Of a stretch of DNA of 64,000 nt, positions 55,739 through 58,826 are shown piece after piece. The translations under genes and the position numbers were made by a program. The notes under the pieces were generated by a model that did no database searches, was not told where the DNA came from, and was given only the letters and a program-made list of their open reading frames with translations. Source of the stretch: SAR202 cluster bacterium (GTDB taxonomy: Bacteria > Chloroflexota > Dehalococcoidia > Lucifugimonadales > Lucifugimonadaceae); contig VFGZ01000030.1 in assembly GCA_009392215.1 (NCBI GenBank), positions 1-64,000 of the forward strand, given 5' to 3'. The first letter of the stretch is position 1; the number at the start of each line of letters is the position of its first letter.

Positions 55739-57034
55739 ATGGCTGATATCCAGCCCTTCAGGGCAGTACGTTATAACTCCGATATCGCAGGGGATGTGAG
55801 TCTTCATGTTTGTCCTCCGTTTGACGTAATTACTCCGCAACTTCAACACGAACTTTATGATCGTTCTCCCTACAATATCGTTCGCTTAGAGTTGGCACGT
55901 CGCGGGCTTTCAGATGATCCATATGAACGAGCTGCGGAAACAGCTCAAACTTGGGAAGATTCAGGTGTTCTTAAATATGATGAAGAACCTTCTATATACG
56001 TAACGGAAGAAGAGTTTGAGTATCGAGGTCGCACACTTCGAAGGCGGGGGTTTATTGCGGGTGTCAGGTTAGAGGATTATGACCAAAAAGTCGTACTGCC
56101 TCACGAAGGTACACGATCAGAATGGGTAGCGGATCGAGTTCGGCTTATGGGGGCAGCGCAGTCGAATTACAGCCCTTTGCTAGTTATATATCGTGATGAT
56201 CTTCGCTCCAGTGTCAGGAATCTCATACGGGCTATAGCTGGTGGTGAACCTACGGTAGTGTTCGAACCACCGGATATGCCTCAACTTCGGCTGTGGCGGG
56301 TTACGGATCCTGGAACGATTAGTGTGATTCAAACTGTTTTGAGGGATTCAGAAATATTCATAGCTGACGGCCATCATCGTTATGAAGCAGCTTTGAGATA
56401 TCGCAGCGCAGTGCGATCTGAACGAGAAGTTCGCTTCGATGAATCGTTGAACTTTCGTATGATGTTGCTGGTCTCGTTTGATGAGCCGGGGTTGATAACA
56501 CGCGGTTATCACCGACTCGTCGAGTCTGCCACAGAAAAAGAATTTGCAGATCTCATCAAAACTATAGACCGAACATGTTATATAGAGGAGTGGGATCCTC
56601 CTGCTGCTTCTACGGCTGCGGACCGGATTGAGCGGTTTGCAGTAGAGTTGGGAGAGCGTAAAGATGATGAGGTTGTGTTCGGTATATACGGTAAAGAACA
56701 GGGGAAATTTCATATAGCAAGAATGAAATCTCCACCTGAGGTCGATAACGCGTTAGAGTCTTCTGAATATTCTTATTTACATTCGCATGTGATTCGACCC
56801 GTTGTAGATGTCGAACGTGAAGAGGAGATCATTAGTCCGCAACATGACGCTGAATTGATAGCTCGTCGCGTGGACGATGGATCAGCTCGAATGGCGTTCA
56901 TTATGCGGCCTGTTCCGCTTGATGAATTTGTTTCAATCGTTACTCGTGGCTGGCGGTTACCTGCTAAAACGACGAATTTCTTCCCAAAGCCTCCCGCAGG
57001 TGCGGTGATTCAGCAATTCGGGGATACTCTATAA
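55739..57034 (+). CDS. DUF1015 family protein
   Basis: IQPFRAVRYNSD...CPPFDVITPQLQHELYDRSPYNIVRLE; FIADGHHRYEAALRYR. Confidence 0.9.
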   Translation: MADIQPFRAVRYNSDIAGDVSLHVCPPFDVITPQLQHELYDRSPYNIVRLELARRGLSDDPYERAAETAQTWEDSGVLKYDEEPSIYVTEEEFEYRGRTLRRRGFIAGVRLEDYDQKVVLPHEGTRSEWVADRVRLMGAAQSNYSPLLVIYRDDLRSSVRNLIRAIAGGEPTVVFEPPDMPQLRLWRVTDPGTISVIQTVLRDSEIFIADGHHRYEAALRYRSAVRSEREVRFDESLNFRMMLLVSFDEPGLITRGYHRLVESATEKEFADLIKTIDRTCYIEEWDPPAASTAADRIERFAVELGERKDDEVVFGIYGKEQGKFHIARMKSPPEVDNALESSEYSYLHSHVIRPVVDVEREEEIISPQHDAELIARRVDDGSARMAFIMRPVPLDEFVSIVTRGWRLPAKTTNFFPKPPAGAVIQQFGDTL

Positions 57035-57059: not shown

Positions 57060-57707
57060 TTAGTTGAGAGAGTCGATTTGCTCTAATACTTTTTCAGCAC
57101 TTACAAAATGACCAGTGTTTTCTCCTATACTTTTCCACACAATTTGACCTTTTTTATCTATCAGGAACAATGAGGCTGAGGCTAATCCGTCTCCAAACAG
57201 GTTAAAAACCCCGTATGAATCAGGCACATAAGGGTCTGAGGAGGTAAACAACAACGGGAATTCTATATCTGTTTTGGAAATCAAATTTAATGAGCCGTCT
57301 AGATCATCTGTACTTATCGCAAGAATTTGAACCTTTTTCTGGTCAAAGGCTTGTTTTTGTTTTTGCAACTCCACGAGTTGTCTCTTACATGCAGCTCACC
57401 AAAACGCTCTATAAAAAGCTAGGAGAACAAATTTTTTATCTTCGAAATCTGAACGAGTGAACTTATGACCTTGTGTTGACGGAAGGCTAAAATCTGGCGC
57501 TTTGTTTAGAGTCGTTGATGTTATTTGTTCAGGCGACCGTATTTTTTCTGAAACCGAAGAATTTTCAACCAGATTGCCAGGGTTCGACTCGTCGACACCT
57601 TCACTGTCGCAGGCTATGGACAGCGCTAGGCTTAGAGCAATCAGCATCATCGGTCCTGATTTTAAGTTGTGCTTAAAATCAGGACCGATGATGCTGATGA
57701 AATCCAT
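57060..57707 (-). CDS. candidate selenocysteine-containing peroxiredoxin (AhpC/TSA family) lipoprotein; read-through of TGA at 57396-57398 (alternative start ATG at 57650)
   Basis: ORF fragments 57396..57707 and 57060..57374 are in the same frame. Read-through gives APDFSLPSTQGHKFTRSDFEDKKFVLLAFYRAFW-[TGA]-AACKRQLVELQKQKQAFDQKKVQILAISTDD..., with TGA at the peroxidatic Cys of the WCxxC motif; lipobox LSIAC. Confidence 0.8.
57366..57380 (-). promoter_or_regulatory. candidate bacterial SECIS hairpin
   Basis: Minus-strand RNA: UGA-15 nt-CAACUC-GUG-GAGUUG; perfect 6-bp stem, 3-nt loop beginning with G, loop 21 nt after UGA. Confidence 0.65.
57640..57698. repeat. perfect 27-bp inverted repeat with 5-nt spacer
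   Basis: ATCAGCATCATCGGTCCTGATTTTAAG-TTGTG-CTTAAAATCAGGACCGATGATGCTGAT, read base by base. Confidence 0.97.
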
Positions 57708-57725: not shown

Positions 57726-58826
57726 CTATGAAGTCATACGATTGAGAGTTTGACTGGCAGCATTTAAAGCTTCGTCGATATGACTTTTCTCGACCCATCC
57801 CATATGTCCAATCCTAAAAATCTTCCCCGTTAAAGATTTTTGTCCGCCTCCCAATACGACGTTGAAGTTGTCATTTACGTCACTCAAAAACTTTTTCCCG
57901 TCTACGTCATCGGGTAGTCTGATGGCCGTTACGGTGTTTGAAGCAAACTTCGGGTCTGGTAGGAGATCTAGTCCTATAGATGATGCTCCTTTACGGGTGT
58001 GTTCTGCAATTTCATGGTGCCGTTGGAATACGTTCTCTATCCCCTCATCGACCATTGATTGTAAGGCTATTTGCAGCGTGAACATGGCTGGGAGGCATGG
58101 GGTGAAGGGTGGTTGTCCTATTTTGAGGTAATCTTCGTATTGCTGTACGTCAAGGTAGTATTTTGGCATTGTGGATTTGGCGTAAGCAGCCCAGGCTTTT
58201 TTCGAGAATGTGATCATAGCGATTCCTGGTGGCGAAACCCAGCTTTTTTGTGATGCGGTTGCTACGACATCTACACCCCAAGCATCTACCGCGATCGGAA
58301 CTCCTCCGGCACTTGAAACGGCGTCTACTAAGATGAGCGCATCAGACTCTTCATGTATGACTGTGCAGAGTTCCTTCAGAGGGTTAGAGACGCCGGTTGA
58401 GCTTTCATTGTGTGTGAATATTACAGCCTTGATATGGGGATTTTTTCTTATGTTTTCTCGCACTGCATCCAGATCAGCTGCGTTGCCTAGTTCGAAATTA
58501 AGCCTGTCTACATCAGCCCCATATGCTTCTGCGATTTCTGCGAATCTCTCACCAAAAACACCAATTATTATTGATAAGACCTTATCTCCTGGTGAAACTG
58601 TGTTCACCACTGCTGCTTCCATCGCTCCCGTCCCAGAAGCCGTTATGAAGTAAACGTCATTATTCGTCATAAAAACGGTTTTTAAATTAGAAGACATCTG
58701 ATCCAGCATCTCTGCGTACTCTGGACCGCGATGATTGATCATTTGAGATCCTGCTACCGCCAGCACCTCGTCAGGTAGCGGTACAGGTCCTGGGATTCTG
58801 AGATTTGGCTGATTCTGGATGGCCAA
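57726..58826 (-). CDS. class V aminotransferase (alanine-glyoxylate / serine-pyruvate type)
   Basis: RIPGPVPLPDEVLAV; INHRGPEYAEML; TASGTGAMEAAVVN; VDAVSSAGG; SQKSWVSPPG PLP Lys. Confidence 0.92.
   Translation of the reverse strand: MAIQNQPNLRIPGPVPLPDEVLAVAGSQMINHRGPEYAEMLDQMSSNLKTVFMTNNDVYFITASGTGAMEAAVVNTVSPGDKVLSIIIGVFGERFAEIAEAYGADVDRLNFELGNAADLDAVRENIRKNPHIKAVIFTHNESSTGVSNPLKELCTVIHEESDALILVDAVSSAGGVPIAVDAWGVDVVATASQKSWVSPPGIAMITFSKKAWAAYAKSTMPKYYLDVQQYEDYLKIGQPPFTPCLPAMFTLQIALQSMVDEGIENVFQRHHEIAEHTRKGASSIGLDLLPDPKFASNTVTAIRLPDDVDGKKFLSDVNDNFNVVLGGGQKSLTGKIFRIGHMGWVEKSHIDEALNAASQTLNRMTS

Follow-up and report, generated by a model that had tools for sequence, protein, structure and literature searches.

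Selenoproteins that carry a UxxC motif (U, selenocysteine, Sec) on a peroxiredoxin (Prx)-like scaffold are a class already known from marine metagenomes. In the passages that deal with them, the Sargasso Sea survey set these "Prx-like" proteins apart from the true Sec-peroxiredoxins with a TxxU motif (PMC1088965), and the GOS survey named the class "Prx-like 1" (PMC2398784). The relevant sections of a 2026 review list a "Prx-like thiol:disulfide oxidoreductase", predicted with high confidence, and mention a few prokaryotic selenoprotein families with two or three Sec residues (PMC13188914). An initial sequence-only reading of the DNA studied here rightly regarded the fold as not new, Sec proteins on a Prx fold being known from marine bacteria, as the class descriptions in these two surveys bear out. 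The stretch analyzed (64,000 nucleotides of a SAR202 contig, hereafter the window) contains the following features:

57060-57707, minus strand: gene of a Sec-containing Prx-like putative lipoprotein (215 codons plus a TAA stop, one TGA read through).
57396-57398, minus strand: UGA codon read as Sec, residue 104, first position of UxxC (TGA/TGC counts at this column; selA, selB, selC and selD in the genome).
57387-57389, minus strand: invariant Cys107 (U+3), aligned with the peroxidatic Cys of peroxiredoxins and the second Cys of the ResA WCxxC.
57366-57380, minus strand: SECIS-like hairpin CAACUC-GUG-GAGUUG, 18-32 nt 3' of the U of the UGA (compensatory changes, 35 relatives).
57609-57707, minus strand: predicted lipoprotein signal peptide ending in the lipobox ALSIA-C (C33) (Prosite-like lipobox pattern).
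57135-57506, minus strand: AhpC-TSA/thioredoxin-fold domain, residues 68-191 (Pfam PF00578, E = 1.3e-24; AlphaFold model).
57726-58826, minus strand: class-V aminotransferase (Pfam PF00266), a conserved neighbor directly upstream on the same strand.
55739-57034, plus strand: DUF1015 protein (Pfam PF06245), a conserved convergent neighbor.

The two ORF fragments in one frame, split by one TGA, that the sequence-only reading had described were recovered at exactly the same coordinates. The 57707-57060 frame is interrupted solely by the TGA at 57398-57396 on the minus strand, and read-through from the ATG at 57707 to the TAA at 57062-57060 yields a 215 aa product composed of a signal peptide with a lipobox, a short linker and an AhpC-TSA/Redoxin domain, the Pfam match to which spans the TGA. 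The UxxC motif claimed in that reading is present as UAAC at residues 104-107, within the active-site stretch FYRAFW-U104-A-A-C107-KRQL. Among the frames of the window split by a TGA, with at least 35 codons before it and at least 50 after it, all but this one overlap another predicted gene, so the open frame across the TGA is more than a chance occurrence. Standard annotation would split or truncate such a gene.

The host genome (SAR202; Chloroflexota, Lucifugimonadales), about 85% complete with 1.8 Mb in 69 contigs, encodes the whole Sec machinery: selA (513 bits; cut-off 268), selB (329.5 bits; cut-off 242), selD (373.6 bits; a UGA of its own lies close to the N terminus) and a tRNA-Sec gene, selC (69.4 bits), with a TCA anticodon according to ARAGORN. 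The host SelD (L056 1501-2430, minus strand) is a UGA-containing selenoprotein with the motif AACAGUAGK. Within the family to which the window belongs, selA and the Sec gene occur together in 36 genomes and are both missing from 13, with selA alone in 10 and the Sec gene alone in 2 (Fisher p = 1.2e-5), although related genomes are not independent and kinship inflates both co-occurrence and covariation statistics. The two assemblies with the gene and no selA are 74-82% complete, and some gene-bearing assemblies with no strong tRNA-Sec or selA match are likewise incomplete (74-90%). In the small-genome genera of the family (g5, g6 and g9, with G022, G023, G026, G032 and G033 among their genomes), selA and the Sec gene are mostly both absent, which suggests that selenium use was lost there along with genome reduction.

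At 77 distinct homologous sites with the motif FYR..x..C..QL, the column of the UGA holds TGA in 74 cases and TGC (Cys) in three, all of the latter from more distant members of the phylum. Almost all the close homologs in 100 relatives have exactly one in-frame TGA, and it lies at the same place in homologs throughout the order. Among named records, homologous loci are found mainly in SAR202/Dehalococcoidia MAGs and also in the cultured Ca. Lucifugimonas marina JH1073 (CP046147.1), whose order, Lucifugimonadales, corresponds to GTDB UBA1151 (PMC10444878). Comparison with the two nearest relatives gave dN/dS values of 0.13-0.33 before the TGA and 0.15-0.27 after it, indicating purifying selection on both sides with no relaxation downstream.

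The stem-loop located 18-32 nt past the UGA is kept in 35 sequences, with 96.2% of the cells paired. Both sides of the stem were changed in 14 cells versus 5.0 in shuffles, and one pair is A-U in 20 sequences, G-C in 11 and G-U in 4, with zero mismatches. This switching pair joins a third codon position (Gln) to a first codon position (Leu), both of which can change silently. As the hairpin is short and lies within the conserved coding stretch QL.EL, part of its conservation is due to protein constraint. Folded by itself, the hairpin has an energy of -5.4 kcal/mol (z -1.63), and against synonymous recoding the UGA window (mean z -0.43) is hardly separated from control windows (-0.30 to 0.06). 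A search of the stretch against Rfam returned no SECIS match; its hits were exclusively to microRNAs, scored far below the gathering thresholds in every case and lay on an unrelated inverted repeat. The presence of a SECIS-like hairpin directly 3' of the UGA is supported by its covariation, but not by the folding-energy z-scores alone.

Two explanations would do away with the selenoprotein altogether. If a Cys-peroxiredoxin-like gene had decayed through a nonsense mutation, or if the TGA were a sequencing error, a single substitution from TGC to TGA would be enough, errors do occur in MAG and SAG assemblies, and true TGC homologs are present in the phylum; however, the same TGA is found in dozens of independent assemblies from many genera and families, selection is equally purifying before and after it, and the Sec machinery is present. 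Conservation of the TGA together with purifying selection downstream rules out a pseudogene, to which we assign a negligible probability. A changed code in which TGA specifies another amino acid, or read-through with no Sec involved, would agree with the open frame across the TGA and is just as hard to credit, given the complete set of sel genes, the Cys at this column in homologs, and the use of TGA as the ordinary stop of 14 of the 52 predicted genes in the window, which shows that the code is not globally changed. The sequence-only reading had itself named three signs of a nonsense mutation, namely a genome devoid of Sec machinery, relatives with TGC or TGT and no hairpin, and relaxed selection downstream; none of them was found. 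The TGA is almost certainly a selenocysteine codon and the gene intact: machinery, TGA conservation, Cys homologs, selection and the SECIS-like hairpin all support Sec decoding, which is established short of an experiment.

Regarding the active site, the sequence-only reading had placed the TGA on the peroxidatic Cys, and here the alignments disagree. Against solved peroxiredoxins (2ywn, 2cx3, AhpE), it is Cys107 that falls on the peroxidatic Cys of PxxxTxxC, whereas U104 falls on the active-site Thr, the active-site Pro is replaced by the Arg of FYR and the catalytic Arg by Ala, so that only the Cys of the canonical signature (PxxxTxxC plus Arg) is kept. In the alignment with ResA, U104 coincides with the first Cys of WCxxC, and the second motif residue is Cys in every homolog aligned. 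AlphaFold produced a confident thioredoxin-fold model for residues 56-215 (pLDDT 85.9, pTM 0.84), in which the helix after the FYR strand begins with the UxxC, and the fold assignment is based on sequence profiles and the secondary structure of this model. Peroxiredoxins were the best PDB matches in the profile search, and none of the NCBIfam models reached its cut-off for this protein. The view that read-through restores one peroxiredoxin holds for the AhpC-TSA/thioredoxin fold, which continues across the TGA, and fails for the canonical Prx active site. Judging from these alignments, Sec is predicted to form a thioredoxin-like UxxC on a Prx scaffold stripped of the remaining Prx active site; since this combination, in a PF00578 domain, defines the predicted class of Prx-like UxxC selenoproteins, the protein is by its sequence a member of that class.

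Two other enzyme types were weighed against this assignment. In a true Sec-peroxiredoxin, as the sequence-only reading had it, Sec would take the peroxidatic role in the classical Prx mechanism, and the PF00578 fold, the peroxiredoxins at the head of the PDB matches and the reactivity of Sec with peroxides all fit; but the peroxidatic Cys aligns three residues away from U104, the active-site Pro, Thr and Arg have become Arg, Sec and Ala, and the second Cys is retained as in CxxC oxidoreductases, making this reading improbable. Somewhat better placed, though still tentative, is an envelope thiol:disulfide oxidoreductase of the ResA/TlpA type, acting in disulfide reduction or isomerization or in cytochrome maturation rather than in peroxide removal. 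The position of U on the first Cys of WCxxC, the place of ResA among the leading PDB and NCBIfam matches and the envelope anchoring typical of ResA-type proteins point in that direction, whereas peroxiredoxins outrank ResA in the profile search, Ser-Ala-Ser stands where ResA-type proteins have a Pro ahead of the C-terminal strand (PTTFLI), and no cytochrome-maturation gene adjoins the locus.

The lipoprotein form suggested by the sequence-only reading agrees with the lipobox pattern, which occurs in the window gene, with residue 33 as its cysteine, and in 58 of the 73 distinct UGA domains. The remaining domains lie inside multi-domain proteins, at contig ends or behind disrupted N-termini, or belong to a separate FYRGDWU subgroup with no export signal. 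A type II signal peptide with a lipobox Cys, the mark of bacterial lipoproteins, is matched by pattern, and lipidation is accordingly a prediction. The signal-peptide coding region also contains, just past the start codon, a perfect 27-bp inverted repeat with a 5-nt loop (57640-57666 / 57672-57698), unique in the genome and missing from the sister gene in G016. The repeat stems either from a recent mutation that formed a palindrome or from an artefact of amplification or assembly.

The arrangement class-V aminotransferase, Sec gene, DUF1015 recurs in genomes ranging from the genus of the window to remote families of its order, the aminotransferase adjoining the Sec gene in most of the order and DUF1015 adjoining it across the order. 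In several genomes, two or three Sec genes stand in tandem. Three adjacent Sec Prx-like genes, of the subtypes FYRGFW/FYRAFW, FYRAYW and FYRGFF, are seen in L034, L035, L036, L038, L039, L075 and L076. A single-contig genome of 2.75 Mb (G019) contains a 705-codon frame coding for a predicted lipoprotein with three UxxC Prx-like domains, and so with three Sec residues:

L051 1746-3614 (G019:C1), minus strand: three-Sec lipoprotein frame, with three UGAs followed by a hairpin and a fourth UGA as stop.

The hairpin sequence GCAGCTCGTGGAGTTGC follows each internal UGA of this frame and is missing after the terminal one. In other members of the phylum (L109, L111), Cys (TGC) versions of the domain are fused behind a ResA-like domain.

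Taken as a whole, the locus very probably encodes an intact selenoprotein with Sec at residue 104, exported and lipidated, with a Prx/thioredoxin fold and a UxxC motif. Gene integrity, Sec decoding capacity, fold, lipobox and UxxC were computed, and lipidation in vivo, the catalytic cycle, the electron donor and the substrate are proposed as follows. SelB with Sec-tRNA(Sec), anticodon UCA, would recognize the small hairpin just past the UGA, and Sec would be inserted at residue 104. The product would then be exported and lipidated on Cys33, its flexible linker holding the Sec domain on the outward side of the cytoplasmic membrane, in cells of the monoderm envelope type described for these bacteria (PMC10444878). 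There, the selenolate would attack an oxidized substrate, either a hydroperoxide or an oxidized thiol or disulfide of envelope proteins; Cys107 would resolve the intermediate by forming a Se-S bond, to be reduced in turn by a donor of the thioredoxin type. With peroxiredoxins as the nearest relatives by profile, we lean slightly toward peroxides or peroxide damage: their reduction in the envelope has, in our estimate, roughly an even chance of being the function, and is favored over disulfide reduction or isomerization, which is possible with a distinctly lower probability.

The passages of the two surveys on the Prx-like class contain no assignment to SAR202 or to lipoproteins (PMC1088965, PMC2398784). 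Within the parts of the literature covered by our search, no report was found of the SAR202 assignment, the lipoprotein form, the fixed locus, the tandem copies or the three-Sec chain, in keeping with the novelty that the sequence-only reading had attributed to the lineage and to the lipoprotein version. Nor was any mention of selenoproteins in SAR202 found in the literature searched, and the term "seleno" is absent from the cultivation paper (PMC10444878). Some of the survey reads may be SAR202 Sec genes of the same kind.

In the dark ocean, SAR202 ranks with the most abundant lineages; if its envelope holds a conserved enzyme that depends on selenium, the redox biology of these bacteria would be tied to the supply of this element. 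As killing by light has been reported for cultured SAR202 strains, a link to oxidative stress is testable. The Sec gene also exemplifies a class of genes broken by automatic annotation. It is conceivable, and we propose it with less than even confidence, that SAR202 possesses a selenoprotein system on a Prx scaffold, anchored in the envelope and common to the whole lineage, which in places has grown into tandem genes and into a single lipoprotein with three Sec domains. Such a system would be a main use of selenium in SAR202, would serve in surface peroxide defense, and would have been missed since annotation cuts the genes at the UGA.

Among known systems, SelL has the motif UxxU. SelL and SelL-related redox proteins (NF040769) share with the SAR202 protein a Prx-like fold and a Sec in the redox motif, but the second motif position is always Cys in the latter and its homologs, and the model scores 44.9 bits against a cut-off of 120. 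PrxU, of the Eubacterium acidaminophilum type (TxxU; NF040737), also combines a Prx fold with Sec in the active-site region; there, however, Sec occupies the peroxidatic position, whereas in the SAR202 protein it lies three residues earlier, and the score is 35.6 bits against a cut-off of 270. The ResA/TlpA thiol-disulfide oxidoreductases are similar in their envelope-anchored thioredoxin fold and in a WCxxC equivalent to WUxxC, and differ in that the SAR202 protein has Sec for the first Cys and a Prx-type C-terminal half devoid of the ResA Pro-Thr-Thr stretch, with 55.1 bits for the curated family against a cut-off of 170. The closest likeness is with the marine Prx-like UxxC selenoproteins, which are also PF00578 proteins with UxxC instead of the TxxU of true Sec-Prx, are likewise marine and are known from computational prediction only; from these, the system described here is distinguished by its SAR202 host, fixed locus, lipobox, Pro/Thr-rich linker, tandem copies and one chain with three Sec residues.
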